From: a virus | Strand: one strand, 5' to 3' | DNA: 64,000 bases | Virus record (IMG/VR): IMGVR_UViG_3300037587_000923 | Span: 1 to 64,000 of that record | In this document: positions 5,801 to 49,686 of the stretch, one piece after another | Numbering within the stretch: the first letter of the stretch is position 1 | How the letters are laid out: each line of letters opens with the position of its first letter | Notes under the pieces: generated by a model | Databases searched by the model: none | What the model saw: only the letters and a program-made list of their open reading frames with translations | What the model was told of the DNA's origin: nothing | Position numbers and translations under genes: made by a program

Positions 5801-6150
5801 TGTCTGACTACTGCCCTACCAGCAAGGAGTTTGTAAGATCCGTGCAGATAGAAGCCCTGAGGACTGGTGATTATCCCCGAGGGACTCAGATAATGTATAA
5901 GCCTAGCCACTCGAAGACTGAAGATGATTATGAATTTGGTTTTATCACGAGCTACTCCCCAAACGGAAATGTCTTCTGTAGATTTTTTCATAGGACTTGG
6001 AGTGGAGTCGGGTCAGTAACGCCTTCGAGAACTACGGCTAATAGCGAATCATGCAGAGCAGATGACCTGACTATACATACGAGCCGGCCACAAGAGATTG
6101 TCGATGAACTCCTGAGGAAGATAGATAATAACGAATCACTGTATGATTAA
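5800..6150 (+). CDS. Hypothetical protein, 116 aa
   Basis: ATG overlaps the previous TGA after GGAGGCG. The central part (about 35-75) is beta-rich (FGFITSYSPNGNVFCRFF), like a small SH3-type fold. The C-terminal part is helical. Unknown function. Confidence 0.65.
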   Translation: MSDYCPTSKEFVRSVQIEALRTGDYPRGTQIMYKPSHSKTEDDYEFGFITSYSPNGNVFCRFFHRTWSGVGSVTPSRTTANSESCRADDLTIHTSRPQEIVDELLRKIDNNESLYD

Positions 6151-7638: not shown

Positions 7639-8220
7639 ATGGAACGGAAAACTGGAAGCGTTGAAGAGGTGATCGAGGCCTTCTGGGAAGGAAGGGAGCT
7701 TAGGGTTGTCAAGGTGTCTAATAACATGGGTCCGGCATGGTGGGGTGGTGACTATGCTCCTCAAGGCATAAGAGATCAGGTTAAAGTTTATCCCGATAGA
7801 GTTGAATATCTTCTATGGGATAGCCCGATCGCCGTAAGAAGTGGCAACATCCTAACCCTGAATAACTGTGGGTATGAGACAAATCTCACCAGAGACAGGA
7901 TGGGGGATATAACTGGCGGGCTGAAAAACTGGACATGGAGAAACGAAAGAGTTCCGTGGGTAGGTAAAGCGAATTGGGGATATAGTAATAATATCGACCT
8001 CCCCTTCCCTCTCAAAATTAATATCCTCAAGGGAGAGCCTTTCAAGAGAGAGGTACTTAAACACAAAGAGTTCTTAATATCGAAGCTCATGAAGTCCCGG
8101 GCAGAATGGCGATTCAGGTACATCTATAAAATATGTGAAGAATGGGGCCTCCAGAAAAACGTAAACGATGATGAACTCAATGCCAAGCTGGTGACTATGA
8201 CCATGAAAGGGGTGATCTGA
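7639..8220 (+). CDS. Hypothetical protein, 193 aa
   Basis: ATG 7639 follows AAAGGAGTTGAG; an earlier in-frame ATG lies inside the palindrome and is unlikely to be used. It is a Trp-rich soluble protein with a basic C-terminal helix region. The last base overlaps the next ATG (TGATG). No family is recognised. Confidence 0.65.
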   Translation: MERKTGSVEEVIEAFWEGRELRVVKVSNNMGPAWWGGDYAPQGIRDQVKVYPDRVEYLLWDSPIAVRSGNILTLNNCGYETNLTRDRMGDITGGLKNWTWRNERVPWVGKANWGYSNNIDLPFPLKINILKGEPFKREVLKHKEFLISKLMKSRAEWRFRYIYKICEEWGLQKNVNDDELNAKLVTMTMKGVI

Positions 8221-9274: not shown

Positions 9275-10339
9275 ATGGCTGGAGCAGAGATATACGAAGT
9301 ATCAATAAGGGAAATGAAGGAGGTAGTGAAGGCATGCTACGAAACAAACACTCCGGTTATAGCGAGAGGGGGGCCTGGGCTTGGTAAGACAACAGGATTT
9401 ACTCAGGCTGCAAATGAGCTCAAGATAGGATGCAGGATTGAGGAGGGAAGTTCGCTCGACCCGTCAGACGTAAGGGGAGTTCTTGTTCCCAACCTCAAAG
9501 AGAAGACATCATTCTACACGACGCCTGCTATCCTGCCGAATAAGGAGGAGGGGCCAAAAGGACTGCTCGTTATCGACGAACTCGGCGGGTGTATGGCAGC
9601 CACACAGAAAGCTCTCCAGTCTCTGTTCGACCTAAGGAGAATAGGAGTTCATGGACTTATGGAAGGATGGCTTCCTGTAGCAACCGGTAATTATGCAACA
9701 GATGATGCGGGTGCTTTTAATCTCCTGACTACTTTTCAGGACAGGGGGGTAATACTCAACGTAAAGCCGAACTTCAACGTATGGAAGGAGGACTTCGCTC
9801 TCCCAACTGGAATTCATGAGAATATTATTTCATATCTGGATTTCAAGACGGCAGCTTTCTACACATTCAACGACAGGAAAACCGGTTCTCCTAAGGGTAA
9901 GGGCTTCGCATCGCCAAGGACTTATACTATGGCTTCAAGGTTTCTGAAGCTTAACCTGGCAGAGAACATCCTCAGGCCGATACTGATCGGTCTTCTCGGT
10001 GAGGGCGTAGCAAGGGAGTTGATGGGCTTTTGTGAGATCAGTCACAAGCTGCCAGCAATAGAGGATATATACAGAGGAAAGACAAATGCAGTCCCTGAGG
10101 ATCCGGCAGCACTGTATGCTTTGAGCGGTTCATTGGTTGCCTTCCTGAGAGGTTTGCCTGACGATCTGGCTATGAACGTGGCACTGGAAAGGCTCATGGA
10201 ATATACAAGGAAACTTCCTCGTGAGTTCGCCTGTCTTACCATGAAGGATGCCCAGCATTTAGTTGGCGATAAGCTGAAGAAATGTAAGGGCTGGGTAGGT
10301 TGGGCTAAAGACTACAAAGATCTCATACTGGCACTATAA
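9275..10339 (+). CDS. MoxR-type AAA+ ATPase
   Basis: A Walker A motif (GGPGLGKTT, residues 32-40) and Walker B (LLVIDELGG, about 97-105) are followed by a sensor-like VATGN segment, as in MoxR/RavA AAA+ proteins (this one is 354 aa). These ATPases act as ring-forming remodellers, usually beside a VWA partner, and such a partner lies 11 bp downstream. A GCCC/GGGC hairpin precedes the ribosome binding site. In phages the pair's substrate is not known; I infer a chaperone or maturation role. Confidence 0.9.
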   Translation: MAGAEIYEVSIREMKEVVKACYETNTPVIARGGPGLGKTTGFTQAANELKIGCRIEEGSSLDPSDVRGVLVPNLKEKTSFYTTPAILPNKEEGPKGLLVIDELGGCMAATQKALQSLFDLRRIGVHGLMEGWLPVATGNYATDDAGAFNLLTTFQDRGVILNVKPNFNVWKEDFALPTGIHENIISYLDFKTAAFYTFNDRKTGSPKGKGFASPRTYTMASRFLKLNLAENILRPILIGLLGEGVARELMGFCEISHKLPAIEDIYRGKTNAVPEDPAALYALSGSLVAFLRGLPDDLAMNVALERLMEYTRKLPREFACLTMKDAQHLVGDKLKKCKGWVGWAKDYKDLILAL

Positions 10340-10349
10340 GGAGTCCGTC

Positions 10350-11669
10350 ATGAATGAAATGATTGATTTAGAGAGTCTGGATTCAGTAGAGAATAAGATA
10401 AGCAGGGCAAAAGTACAGATCATGTTCAACCATATGTTTCTGTCTTGTCTCGTTGCTAGGCTGGAATGGGTAGAGGACGAGTCGGTAAAGGTTATGGGGG
10501 CCCCGACTATGTGTGTGTCAGTTAAGCAGCTTAGATATCATCCTGAGTTCGTTGAGAAAACAGGCCATGACGAGCTTATGGGAGTGGTGGCGCACGAACT
10601 CCTTCACGTAATATTTCAGCACGTCCTTGAGTGGAGGAATCCTAAGGGAAAGATAGTTCCCATATGGACAATGGCTCAGGAGCATGTAGTGAATGATGCC
10701 GTGATAAACATGTTCGGATTGTCTCTGCCTGACGGTATTATCTACGATGAGGAAGCAAAAGGAATGTATACGGAGGAAGCCTATCAGTTCTTCCTGAAAA
10801 AGTTTCCGCAGATAAACGACAGTCACTCCAAGATATTTGAAATGATGCTCGCTGGCGGCGGTGAAGATGAGGGAGATGAGGGAGAGGGATCAAGCAAAGT
10901 CGGCAGCGGTGAAGGTGACAAGGAGGAAGATGGGGAGGGGGAGAGCCCCGGAGGTGATATAGAATCTCTGCTTGAGGATATAGCCAGCAAGGTTATGGAC
11001 AGTCACAAATCGAGTGAAGGCCCCATGACTGAAGAGGAAGAGACTATACTGAAAGGCAGGATAAAGGACATGGTTACTGAGGCTGCAACTGCAGCAAAGA
11101 TGGCAGGTAAAATGCCGGCAGGCCTCGAGAGATTGGTTGGCGAGATAATCGATCCAAAGATTCCATGGCAACATCATTTAGCAAATCTTACGAGCGGTTG
11201 GGCTAGAGATGATTACAGCTACAGAAGACCCAGCAGGAAGTACATCTATCAAGGTATAGTTATGCCTTCCCTCAGGAGCGAATTACTCGAGGTGGCCATC
11301 GGTATAGACACTAGCGGTAGCATAGGGAAGGATGAAATGACCGAGTTTATTTCCGAAATATTGGGGATAATGAATGCCTTTCAAAGCTACAGATTACATG
11401 TCTTTGGTTGCGATCATGCTGTTCATGGATATGAGATTATTGAGCCTGGGCAAAGTTATGATTTGACTGATGTGCTGAGTGGCGGGGGCGGTACTTCTTT
11501 TGTTCCAGTCTTGAAAAGAATAGAAGAGGAGGGCTTGAATCCAGAGGCTCTCATCTATTTCACTGATTGCTATGGAGACTTCGGCACAGCTCCTAATTAT
11601 TCCGTACTATGGCTCATCAAAGGATCATTCACTGGCGTACCTTACGGGAAAGAAATACACATGGATTAA
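10350..11669 (+). CDS. Metallopeptidase-like protein with VWA domain
   Basis: Residues 82-86 read HELLH with a further His at 91, a zinc-metallopeptidase-like motif (DUF2201 type). A long acidic Gly/Glu linker follows (about 170-205). The C-terminal part (about 310-435) is a VWA-like fold with a DTSGS metal-ion site and a GGGGTS loop. It forms an operon with the MoxR ATPase, matching the common MoxR-VWA pairing. Whether the peptidase site is active cannot be told from sequence. Confidence 0.88.
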   Translation: MNEMIDLESLDSVENKISRAKVQIMFNHMFLSCLVARLEWVEDESVKVMGAPTMCVSVKQLRYHPEFVEKTGHDELMGVVAHELLHVIFQHVLEWRNPKGKIVPIWTMAQEHVVNDAVINMFGLSLPDGIIYDEEAKGMYTEEAYQFFLKKFPQINDSHSKIFEMMLAGGGEDEGDEGEGSSKVGSGEGDKEEDGEGESPGGDIESLLEDIASKVMDSHKSSEGPMTEEEETILKGRIKDMVTEAATAAKMAGKMPAGLERLVGEIIDPKIPWQHHLANLTSGWARDDYSYRRPSRKYIYQGIVMPSLRSELLEVAIGIDTSGSIGKDEMTEFISEILGIMNAFQSYRLHVFGCDHAVHGYEIIEPGQSYDLTDVLSGGGGTSFVPVLKRIEEEGLNPEALIYFTDCYGDFGTAPNYSVLWLIKGSFTGVPYGKEIHMD

Positions 11670-11678
11670 GGAGGAGGT

Positions 11679-12326
11679 ATGTCGGCGAAAATAGATCTGA
11701 CTGGCAAAAGATTTGGAAGGCTGATAGTTGAAAGTATCGCCCCTAAAGACAGGCACGGAAACATCTGCTGGAAAGTTAAATGTGATTGCGGAAACACAAA
11801 GTCTGTCAACAGCTCTGTGTTGTTGAAGGGCACAACAAGATCATGTGGCTGCCTAAACCAGGAGCTCAGGTCTGCACGACTTCTATCACATGGCATGACA
11901 AATACTCCCACATATCGATCTTGGCAGGCAATGAAATCGAGGTGCTCTAATCCTAACGATGAAAGCTATGCTAGATACGGCGGGAGGAGAATATCTGTCT
12001 GCGATAGATGGCTAGGCGAGAATGGATTCAAAAACTTCTACAAAGATATGGGAGTACGCCCCAAAGAACTTACGTTGGAGCGAATAAATAACGACGGTAA
12101 TTATGAGCCATCGAATTGCAAGTGGGCAACTCGCAAGGAGCAGAATAGAAACACAAGAACAAATAGGATATTGGAGTACGGTGGAAGGAGGCAATCATTG
12201 TCGGCTTGGGCAGAAGAATATGGCTTAAATGCCTCTTTGTTGAGTGAAAGACTCAGGAACAGATGGACTATTAAAAAGGCATTAAACACGCCAGTAGGGC
12301 CTCAGGGAGTAAAGAAATTAAGATAG
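11679..12326 (+). CDS. HNH-family (homing-type) phage endonuclease, 215 aa
   Basis: Residues about 8-60 form a zinc domain (LTGKRFGRLIV, then CDCGN and SCGC). Residues about 70-150 contain TYRSWQAMKSRC and LERINNDGNYEPSNCKWAT, a hallmark of phage-borne HNH/AP2-associated endonucleases. The C-terminal 55 residues form an HTH-like DNA-binding part. Such genes are selfish and often inserted between phage genes. It begins 10 bp after the VWA gene and sits directly before the retron-like locus. The same N-terminal domain recurs alone at 13,484. Confidence 0.8.
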   Translation: MSAKIDLTGKRFGRLIVESIAPKDRHGNICWKVKCDCGNTKSVNSSVLLKGTTRSCGCLNQELRSARLLSHGMTNTPTYRSWQAMKSRCSNPNDESYARYGGRRISVCDRWLGENGFKNFYKDMGVRPKELTLERINNDGNYEPSNCKWATRKEQNRNTRTNRILEYGGRRQSLSAWAEEYGLNASLLSERLRNRWTIKKALNTPVGPQGVKKLR

Positions 12327-12464
12327 GTCTATGGTTTGCCCTGCCGTATCGGCGGGGAGAGAGATAAGTAAGTATGGACTAGGTATCACTGTGGTTCAAA
12401 GCTATCTAAAATTCGTGGGCATTAAAGCCCGGAGAGGAGGAAAATATCGGACGCCCGAAATAAG
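12327..12464 (+). other. Non-coding stretch with orphan leader hairpin and SD
   Basis: After the HNH stop there is a strong GC hairpin (about 12,339-12,357, no U-tract). Then comes a GGGC/GCCC hairpin (12,417-12,430) followed at once by GGAGAGGAGG. This is the exact leader form seen before other genes here, but no start codon follows at a usable distance. I see no coding frame in this stretch. Confidence 0.5.
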
Positions 12465-12609
12465 TTCATCTATGGTCGAATGCGGGGCGCTGTTCCGGTG
12501 CCTCTGATGGAAAGCACATAAGGACTAAGGCCGTTGCACTAGGCTTGAATTCCTTACACCCGAGGAATTCAAACGCTCTCGCGGAGAAGAGTCCCATGGC
12601 ATAGATGGA
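12465..12609 (+). ncRNA. Candidate retron-like msr-msd RNA
   Basis: Ten bases at 12,465-12,474 (TTCATCTATG) pair with 12,600-12,609 (one G-U), like the a1/a2 repeats that close retron RNAs. Inside are a 5-bp hairpin at 12,486-12,502 and a perfect 10-bp stem with an 8-nt loop (12,545-12,554 with 12,563-12,572) that could be the msd stem. The 145-nt span and its place 54 bp upstream of a retron-type reverse transcriptase fit the known arrangement. A conserved branching-G motif is not obvious, so this remains a structural inference. Confidence 0.5.
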
Positions 12610-12662
12610 AAGGGAGCTGTGGTAATTAACCAAGGCACATAGATGCCGGGAAGGAGAAGATC

Positions 12663-13487
12663 ATGAAGGACGAGATGTACACTAGGTGGCCAATTAAAAA
12701 GAGGAGGGGAGGTGTCAGGTGGATAGAGTCTCCGAATGATGACCTAAAGGCAAGACAGAGAGAGTCTATTGATAAGTTGGAAGAGAAACTGCAGGTATCG
12801 CCATTCACACATGGCTTTGCAAGATATAAAAATATCGCAACTATGGCAATGTCACATGTGGGGAAAGAGTATGTAGGCTCGATTGACATTGCGGATTACT
12901 TCCCGAGCATTTCGCTGGAGAAGTTTCTCGATAAGGTCAAGACTGTACCGAAAGAGGAGCTGTGGGATCACTTCCATGATTTCTGTGATGGCAAGGGTAA
13001 CAGATTGCCTCAGGGAGCTCCGGGTTCCCCGCTCATATCCAATGCTTATCTGTTCCGGCTAGACTGGAGGATGGCATGGCAGTGTCACGAGAGAGGATGC
13101 GATTTCACGAGATATGCAGATGATCTCACGATATCAGGGCCGAACAGGGATGATGTTGTTGTCCTGCTCAAGATAGCCAGTGAGTTGATGAGAGTATACT
13201 ATGGGCTCAAGACCAACAAGAAGAAGACTAAGATTGTTCATAGGTCTCGAAGAATGTTGGTTTGTGGCGTAGTAGTAAACGAGCGCCTCAACCTTAAAAG
13301 GGAAGACAGGAAACGACTAAGGGCCATCAAGCATCAAGAGATGTTGAAAAATGGCAAGCTATCCTTGGAAACTAAGGGCAAGGTTGCTTTCGAGGCGATG
13401 ATACGAGAGAACACAAAAACAACTCACTCCTCCAGGGAAATAATAGACTCAGTTAAAGTCACGAAGGAAATGGCGGCTGTAAAATGA
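12663..13487 (+). CDS. Retron-type reverse transcriptase, 274 aa
   Basis: Motif order is that of retron RTs: IKKRRGGVRWI (11-21), HGF (50-52), a variant of the NAxxH motif (MAMSH, 61-65), catalytic DIADYFPSI (75-83), QGAPGSPLISN (117-127), YADD (151-154) and VCGVVVN (200-206) in the place of the retron VTG motif. There is no maturase domain, and the QGxxxSP box excludes a DGR enzyme. At 274 aa it is slightly shorter than typical retron RTs (about 300-320 aa). ATG follows GGGAAGGAG, which is preceded by a GGCA/TGCC hairpin. The stop overlaps the next ATG (ATGA). The enzyme should reverse-transcribe a linked RNA. Confidence 0.88.
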   Translation: MKDEMYTRWPIKKRRGGVRWIESPNDDLKARQRESIDKLEEKLQVSPFTHGFARYKNIATMAMSHVGKEYVGSIDIADYFPSISLEKFLDKVKTVPKEELWDHFHDFCDGKGNRLPQGAPGSPLISNAYLFRLDWRMAWQCHERGCDFTRYADDLTISGPNRDDVVVLLKIASELMRVYYGLKTNKKKTKIVHRSRRMLVCGVVVNERLNLKREDRKRLRAIKHQEMLKNGKLSLETKGKVAFEAMIRENTKTTHSSREIIDSVKVTKEMAAVK

Positions 13488-13678
13488 GAGATTTAACTGG
13501 CCTTAAATTTGGAAGATGGATAGTGATGAGTCTTGATCGCACCGATAAGTACGGCAAGTCTTTCTGGAATGTGAGATGCCAATGTGGCAATGGACGGAAG
13601 GTGAGAAACGACACTCTGTTAAAAGGAGAGTCTAGTTCATGCGGATGCTTTAGGACGGTGCTGTATCGGTATCGTTGA
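13484..13678 (+). CDS. Stand-alone zinc domain homologous to HNH endonuclease N-terminus, 64 aa
   Basis: Residues 3-55 (LTGLKFGRWIV, then CQCGN and SCGC) match the N-terminal zinc domain of the HNH protein at 11,679. The frame then ends with nine unrelated residues and a stop, so the nuclease part is absent. It overlaps the RT stop by 4 bp and must be co-translated with it. It is either a remnant of an HNH gene cut by the RT element or a DNA/RNA-binding partner of the RT. Confidence 0.75.
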   Translation: MRDLTGLKFGRWIVMSLDRTDKYGKSFWNVRCQCGNGRKVRNDTLLKGESSSCGCFRTVLYRYR

Positions 13679-14170
13679 GTCATGTTGTATAGTGACTATC
13701 AACCTGGCTTGCCGCAGCTACGCATCTGGCTGCACTAGGTTTTTGAACGTGTCATCGCATCAGTCTGAGGTGCCAGCCGAACTCGATGACACATAGCCAT
13801 AGTTTAAATAAAATAGTTTGCTGTAGGTCCGATGTAGCTGCTGATTCGGCAGTCTTGAGTTAGGTTGATATCGTCTGGGTGTTTTACCACAGACTGGTAA
13901 AAGCTACAGCATTAAATGAATTACCTTATGGTCAAGTAGTATTAGGTGCTGCTATCGGCACTGAAGAGAGTTGTTGTTCTGGACTAACAACCGGGCTTCA
14001 CTAACTTTGTTACGATTACCCGGTTTCCAGAGCGCCCAGTCTTACTAGCCTTGCTACGACAACTGGGCTGAACATCTCACGGTTAGCGATCGAGGCGAAA
14101 GAGAATGAACGCCTTTGCTCTGCGCTTATAATTCTCTTTCGAATCTCGCACTAAACTTAGAGATGATAGC
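13679..14170 (+). ncRNA. Long structured non-coding region downstream of the RT
   Basis: No coding frame is convincing here, but stems are frequent. They include 13,749-13,757 with 13,784-13,792 (9 bp); 13,819-13,826 with 13,904-13,911 (8 bp) enclosing 13,882-13,889/13,895-13,902 (8 bp); 13,989-13,995/14,019-14,025; 14,034-14,040/14,062-14,068; and a composite hairpin 14,073-14,165 with an 11-bp perfect core (14,096-14,106/14,131-14,141). It lies between the RT operon and the next leader. It may be an RT template or effector RNA, or a very long structured leader. Confidence 0.5.
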
Positions 14171-14213
14171 ATAAGGTTTATAATTGCTCCATAGAGCAGA
14201 AAGGAGAGGTGAT

Positions 14214-48426: not shown

Positions 48427-49686
48427 CTAAGCGTGTACTTTCAACCTGAACCAGTTACACCTTGAGACCTTAGGCCCACCGTCTATACCAGCTCCTATTT
48501 CGAGCTTATATGGCACCTTCTCGTTGAAGTGTGTCCATGTGTAGCGGCCTGGTAGAGGCCTTGTCCAGCTCGCGCCTTTGATGAGGCTAGGAGTAGACAG
48601 CCAGTTGTTTGCGGCTACCCTGTCATTCGGTACTGCCGAGAACAGAACATAGCCTTCAGGGAGAAATTGCTTGTAAGCAGTTACCCTGTCTCCAAGGAGA
48701 TAGTTGTTGCTCACTCCAGCGGTGAGGGTGATCGTGTTGCCAGAGACACCACCAGTATCTATAGTAACTTCCTCCTCTTCGCCGAGAGTGTTCCTCAAAG
48801 TGAGGACGTCACCGGCTACAAACTCAGCCGCATTCACTACTTCAAGAGTAGTATCGGCTGCTGCTGAAGCTGCGGTAAGAGTTGTCTCCTCTGCATAGAG
48901 CCTGTTGTCCCTCTCGATATCAAGTCCTGTCAACGTCTTGAATACGGCAGTCCTGTCAGCACTCTTCTCTGTGAGAGAAGGAGCGGCAACAACAGAAGCC
49001 TTGGTATCGTCAGCGTTGTAGAACTTCTCCAGGGTATTGACAGACATATACGCCTTCAGTGGGGTGAGCCCCAAAGAGGTCAACATGTGATTCATGGAAC
49101 CGATCATGTCTGCCACAGGAGTTGCAGAGCCAGCAGTGGTCCATACACCGCCAGAAGTCCATGGTGGAGAGGACGCATTGTCCGCAGAATACTTGGCAGG
49201 AATGTTGGGGTTGTAGGTATAGTTCACGCCATACCTTGCTTCCGAATATGTATCGTTTATCAGAAGTTTGGAAGTAACGTACTCAATCAGGGTGTTGAGC
49301 CTAAGGTCGAGGAAATTCAAAGCAGCAGTCTGAAGACCTTCGCCCCACTTCTCGTTCGGTATCGCAGGGTTTACTGCTTTCTGGAGAACAGCCTCGTCAT
49401 ACTGAACGGCCTCTCTCCAATACCCTGCCGTGTGCTCTTTGTAGCTTGAGCCAGGTATCGCTACCCTGCTGTGATCTGCACCTAACTGAATAGGTGCTGT
49501 ACGTCCGAATGCCCCGTTCTGGATAAGGTCTATGATCAGATCCTTATCAACAAGCTTCATGGGCAGGAACGCATCTGTAAGCTTGAAGGCGTCTGACGCA
49601 GGCACAAACTCGTTGATGGTAGAATCCATCACGGCTGGCCTGAAGACTCTAGCCTCCTGAAGCTTTAACAGTTCTTGTCCTGTCAT
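48427..49686 (-). CDS. Major capsid protein (gpE-like), 419 aa
   Basis: The sequence (VFRPAVMDSTINEFVPASD, then KLVDKDLIIDLI; end GAGIDGGPKVSRCNWF) fits the lambda gpE major capsid family, with an extra beta insertion near residues 265-335. It is followed by a strong terminator and lies beside the protease/scaffold, as in lambda. Confidence 0.85.
   Translation of the reverse strand: MTGQELLKLQEARVFRPAVMDSTINEFVPASDAFKLTDAFLPMKLVDKDLIIDLIQNGAFGRTAPIQLGADHSRVAIPGSSYKEHTAGYWREAVQYDEAVLQKAVNPAIPNEKWGEGLQTAALNFLDLRLNTLIEYVTSKLLINDTYSEARYGVNYTYNPNIPAKYSADNASSPPWTSGGVWTTAGSATPVADMIGSMNHMLTSLGLTPLKAYMSVNTLEKFYNADDTKASVVAAPSLTEKSADRTAVFKTLTGLDIERDNRLYAEETTLTAASAAADTTLEVVNAAEFVAGDVLTLRNTLGEEEEVTIDTGGVSGNTITLTAGVSNNYLLGDRVTAYKQFLPEGYVLFSAVPNDRVAANNWLSTPSLIKGASWTRPLPGRYTWTHFNEKVPYKLEIGAGIDGGPKVSRCNWFRLKVHA

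Follow-up and report, generated by a model that had tools for sequence, protein, structure and literature searches.

A candidate multi-template retron in phages: several RNA units around one reverse transcriptase

Retrons are known mainly as cellular defence systems in which each reverse transcriptase (RT) has one template RNA. The viral DNA analysed here, a window of 64,000 nucleotides (positions 1 to 64,000) inside the 82,045-base IMG/VR record IMGVR_UViG_3300037587_000923, raises the question of whether a phage RT gene has such an RNA beside it and, if so, how many. The original prediction placed an msr-msd RNA at 12465-12609, beside the RT gene, with complementary ends closing 145 nt and a perfect 10-bp hairpin inside. 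Both features are present: the left arm (a1, TTCATCTATG) and the right arm (a2, CATAGATGGA) form 10 bp, nine Watson-Crick and one G-U, and the inner hairpin pairs as described. What had been overlooked is a further hairpin at 12484-12504, the units at 13819-13911 and 13923-14177, and the array in which they all stand. The region 12327-14177 is, with good probability, a phage-encoded retron in which several RNA templates serve one RT; this estimate covers what the locus is and leaves its purpose to be weighed separately.

Profile, predicted fold and phylogeny all mark the RT as retron-type, which upholds the msr-msd reading on the protein side. Its open reading frame (ORF) matches RVT_1, and retron RT models score best on it, those of NCBI below their curated cutoffs (171 bits for NCBIfam St85, cutoff 235). 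PADLOC retron models lead, RT_XIII being the best at 193 bits. The PADLOC RT models that score best belong to retron types XIII, II-A, III-A and X, but none of the effectors of these types was recognised beside the window RT, whose neighbours are HNH, MoxR and DUF2201/vWA genes. Among solved sequences, the Ec86 retron RT comes closest, and the 13 best Protein Data Bank fold matches of an AlphaFold2 model (pLDDT 92) are all retron RTs. In a tree of 88 RTs, the window enzyme groups with those of the phage contigs L037, L035 and L008 (support 100/99); the four form a separate deep branch, called the clade below. The window RT carries the YADD catalytic core; its region X reads MAMSH instead of NAxxH, with A and H retained, and its region Y starts with VCG instead of VTG. 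Two other identities were tried and rejected: a group II intron maturase (62 of 300 bits; no Rfam match) and the DRT2 defence RT (43 of 390 bits against Drt2). Close relatives are few in the collections searched, and viral contigs searched with the window RT sequence alone gave no match; alignments were required as query.

The closing stem of the predicted RNA, called unit u2 here, is not significant by itself, because 46 of 300 dinucleotide-shuffled versions of the intergenic stretch 12327-12662 contain a long-range stem of at least nine Watson-Crick pairs, and because the 151-nt fold is just two standard deviations better than shuffles, a weak signal. It becomes significant once homologues and paralogous units are added. 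Contig L037, whose RT is 61% identical to that of the window, has an alignable RNA directly 5' of its RT (66% identical over 193 columns). Between the two RNAs, the closing stem keeps its inner five pairs, two of them by double changes (A-U to G-C and U-A to C-G), and loses the outer five. The original prediction had staked its case on conservation of the closing stem in homologous loci, and the covariation of its core decides this in its favour. The first hairpin after a1 (hp1) keeps all nine pairs, two of them through double changes, and the 10-bp hairpin is swapped in L037 for a different 8-bp hairpin between unchanged flanks, GTTGCACTAGGC and CGCTCTCGCG. A covariance model of u2-type RNA found another match upstream of the L037 RT and weaker ones downstream; this model (R1) was not used as proof, because its matches beyond the L037 copies are weak and mixed with chance.

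The layout of u2 is retron-like as well, namely a1, a G, a hairpin of the RT-binding type, a variable hairpin and a2. As a positive control, a generic version of the finder for such units recovers retron Eco1 (Ec86) from the prophage contigs L010-L014 in the same register, as TGCGCACCCTTA, GCGA, the hairpin GGATGTTG(TTT)CGGCATCC and then TAAGGGTGCGCA. Eco1 resembles the window in its RT fold and in the order a1, G, a hairpin with apex UG-UUU-CG, msd, G and a2 upstream of the RT (span 169). It differs in having a single unit, GCG instead of GUC after a1 and a known effector, and the window RT differs in lacking the N of NAxxH and the T of VTG and in its shorter N-terminus. In Eco1 the branching G is the G after a1, which makes G12475, by its position, the candidate branching G of u2. 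The msr stem bound by region Y of the Eco1 RT has 8 bp and a UUU loop (PMC6868368).

A hairpin-only search showed several hp1-type hairpins around each RT of the clade. The units follow a common grammar: a1, GTC, a short linker, hp1 (6-10 bp, a loop of 3-4 nt and the apex YG..CG, that is YG-NNN-CG), a variable region with hairpins, a G and a2. A strict finder for this grammar detected three complete units in the window, one 5' and two 3' of the RT (u2, d1 and d2; 0.005 expected from shuffles); other parts of the window, covered on both strands, and the remaining 18 kb of the record contained none. As read from the DNA, each of the three has its own complementary arms, a G after a1, a G before a2, an msr-type hairpin and a different variable region, and all lie on the RT strand, as do the units throughout the clade. 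The array region of L037 gave seven finder units, six of them distinct (one hairpin has two GTC), plus one at 7982; L008 gave two and L035 one (shuffles at most 0.005). Under looser limits, L037 gains two partial units (4830 and 6315), L008 reaches three and L035 two. The L037 counterpart of d2 lies at 7974-8192, and its outer pair is compensated. Other loci, 1.76 Mb in all, contain 307 hairpin+GTC sites, of which 25 pass the strict finder, many in GC-rich genomes, where matches were counted as chance; L009 has several hp1-type hairpins and no convincing arms.

The pairing of the arms was then assessed blind, on 17 hairpin+GTC sites picked without regard to a2 and with a Watson-Crick partner of at least 7 bp required. 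A partner was present in the unit's own downstream sequence at 11 of the 17 sites, against 6 of 248 when arms were swapped between units (Fisher p = 1.5e-11). A count over 14 units gave 76 double-change cells versus 20.8 after partner shuffling; its blocks were cut by hand down to arms and hairpin and selected for pairing, with the win_u2 row one pair short, and it serves as an illustration, not as an independent test. The G after a1 and the G before a2 are found in all 20 units compared, Eco1 included.

These features suggest how the locus might work. The RT would bind each unit by its hp1, start DNA synthesis on the 2'-OH of the G after a1, copy the variable part adjoining a2 and then stop, so that infected cells would hold several different branched multicopy single-stranded DNAs (msDNAs). 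The units probably share one transcript, because neighbours can be separated by only a few bases; two successive units of L037 even have three bases in common (6005-6007), which belong to the a2 of the first and the a1 of the second. Own-genome targets of the msd parts were not found, as their 13-mer matches to the genome were no more than chance.

Several points weigh against a multi-template retron. The window retron, with its RNAs, msDNAs and 2'-5' branches, is a prediction from sequence. The clade has MAMSH, CAMAH, CALSH or MAIPH in place of NAxxH (N to M or C), and VCG or VVG in place of VTG (T to C or V). The N also varies in two of 16 validated retron RTs, so NAxxH is usual but not strictly defining for retrons, and the T varies in the validated RT-Eco6 (PMC6868368). 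In the window, u1 and the hairpin at 13654 look broken, six of the 17 hairpin+GTC sites have no partner of 7 bp, and Rfam gave no match at either threshold.

Arrays are also found before the RTs of cultured phages. The Listeria grayi jumbo phage LPJP1 has at least four units in the 1.2-kb gap before its RT, with arms of up to 16 bp; a search of the paper on this phage for a reverse transcriptase or a retron came up empty (PMC8460666). In seven Staphylococcus jumbo phages, the gap before the RT (1.1-1.3 kb) contains two or three units. Because shuffles of these AT-rich gaps yield up to two chance units, the Staphylococcus loci rest on covariation: across seven units, all arm and hairpin cells pair (146/146), double changes are seen at 12 of 22 pairs, and none of 500 shuffles does as well. 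The S. aureus jumbo phages (DC4, Madawaska, Machias and S6) and LPJP1 share with the window a phage RT that comes after several units, each built of arms, G and hairpin, but their RTs are larger (about 450-520 aa) and distant in sequence, and their units have another hp1 apex and other letters after a1. According to the phage DC4 paper, the RT is a conserved gene of S. aureus jumbo phages, its role is unconfirmed, and it shows no features of diversity-generating retroelements (PMC10638138); this enzyme now gains concrete, testable partner RNAs in cultured phages. Phages of distant lineages would accordingly combine one RT with two to about nine templates, a pattern of which earlier reports are possible beyond the open-access literature.

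Other loci vary in this respect. Directly before related phage RTs, L039 (4587-4917) and L040 (4574-4916) have 18-bp closing stems with compensatory changes, as good as which none of 300 shuffles was; each has one large unit of 331-343 nt outside the GTC grammar. L045 lacks a noncoding gap ahead of its RT. No array was seen in defence retrons that phages carry together with annotated effectors (L121-L123), a weak contrast because the finder gave no unit there at all. In a bacterial Anaerocolumna metagenome-assembled genome (L061, 4404-4773), two tandem retron-like RNAs with arms of 17 bp and 16 bp stand before one RT, so that multiple templates are not peculiar to phages. A human gut phage contig (L004, 1384-1664) has 11-bp arms, GTC and the hairpin GTCTGCTG(AATC)CGGCAGAC with a type XI-like retron RT, and its letters after a1 are the same as in the window clade.

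Table 1. Features in and near the retron-like region of the window
Feature	Position	Strand	Remark
MoxR-type ATPase and DUF2201/vWA genes	9275..11669	+	conserved neighbours, any link to RT hypothetical
Unit u1, probably degenerate	12327..12460	+	GTCTATG, then hp1 12339-12357; without own a2
Unit u2, complete	12465..12609	+	the RNA first predicted
Arm a1 of u2	12465..12474	+	
G right behind a1 of u2 (GUC)	12475..12475	+	candidate branching G, by position
hp1 of u2	12484..12504	+	GGGGCGCTG(TTC)CGGTGCCTC, msr-type hairpin
Variable (msd-type) hairpin of u2	12545..12572	+	10 bp, arms 12545-12554/12563-12572
Arm a2 of u2	12600..12609	+	
Second CATAGATG	12638..12645	+	within small GGCA/TGCC hairpin
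Retron-type reverse transcriptase	12663..13487	+	274 aa
hp1-type hairpin	13654..13676	+	without recognised arms; CTGCACTAGG at 13730 resembles u2
Unit d1	13819..13911	+	TGCTGTAG/CTACAGCA, hp1 13837-13853
Unit d2	13923..14177	+	ACCTTATG/CATAAGGT, hp1 13945-13962

What such a retron does for the phage can be guessed at. The msDNAs may be of use to the phage, and the likeliest way would be to titrate or block the sensors with which hosts detect single-stranded or retron DNA, a guess that we hold loosely and make because no effector of known retron type was recognised beside the RT. Just as tentatively, phages of several lineages may keep multi-template retrons and use their msDNA sets against the defences of hosts or rivals, and would then form a counterpart, so far unrecognised, to the defence retrons of cells. 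Should the RNAs be copied, sets of naturally occurring single-stranded DNAs would arise in cells infected by these phages, which is relevant to phage-host conflict, and natural multi-template retrons would be on offer for editing tools.

A purpose nearer to that of known retrons would be defence against rival phages, with the MoxR and DUF2201/vWA proteins as effector, which we consider unlikely though worth weighing. These genes lie upstream of the RT across the four clade members (in L008 the stretch covered includes just the vWA gene, recognised by its sequence), MoxR with another vWA type lies upstream of the RT in L036, L039 and L040, and other phages carry defence retrons. However, 584 phage records contain relatives of the vWA protein, no MoxR-vWA gene was recognised beside the RT in the LPJP1 and Staphylococcus arrays, and known retron effectors are of other kinds. 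MoxR and vWA are candidates only.

The number of working templates is a separate matter. An ordinary single-template retron, in which the RT uses just its nearest unit, u2, and the rest have arisen by duplication and decayed, would account for the broken look of u1 and of the 13654 hairpin and for u2 being the window unit best conserved with L037. There is also a precedent in Nex1 (Ne160), in which msr and msd sequences are known to be present in several copies (PMC6868368); these are reported to have no RT less than a kilobase away, whereas the window units flank an RT in a phage. Against decay, d1, d2 and six L037 units beyond u2 have intact, mutually different arms, which decay would not keep, and the L037 counterpart of d2 has its compensated outer pair. 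We regard a single template as improbable and several templates for one RT as the better account.

The original prediction had also proposed that the left arm alternates between two copies of CATAGATG and so couples RNA folding to RT translation. The second copy does lie at 12638, immediately 5' of the RT Shine-Dalgarno sequence, eight pairs with 12638-12645 are possible, and the last a2 is near the RT start in L037, L035, L039 and L040. L037, the closest relative, has no second copy, so the idea is not supported; in addition, the window copy sits in its own small hairpin, and the inner pairing is the stronger one (-10.4 versus -8.1). The msr-msd part of that interpretation is therefore retained and the translation switch, which appears very unlikely, is given up. 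Least credible is that the structured RNA has nothing to do with the RT and represents, for example, remains of homing elements or mRNA processing signals, as HNH genes flanking the region might suggest, for the units accompany the RT in phages without HNH genes there, occur only on the RT strand and match the layout of Eco1.

Some observations concern the surroundings. The HNH endonuclease ORFs on both sides of the RT (11679-12326 and 13484-13678) belong to one family (phrog_374); of the second, only a fragment of 64 aa is present, and its end overlaps an hp1-type hairpin. The vWA gene of L035 (1729-3723) seems to be interrupted by an intein-like insertion, as read by eye from the ORF. The product of 48427-49686 (minus strand) in the window, among structural genes, is a capsid candidate by position and size and had no match in 50,697 phage records. 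Finally, GGAGGAAAATATCGG at 12436-12450 is found again on the minus strand near record position 80,894.
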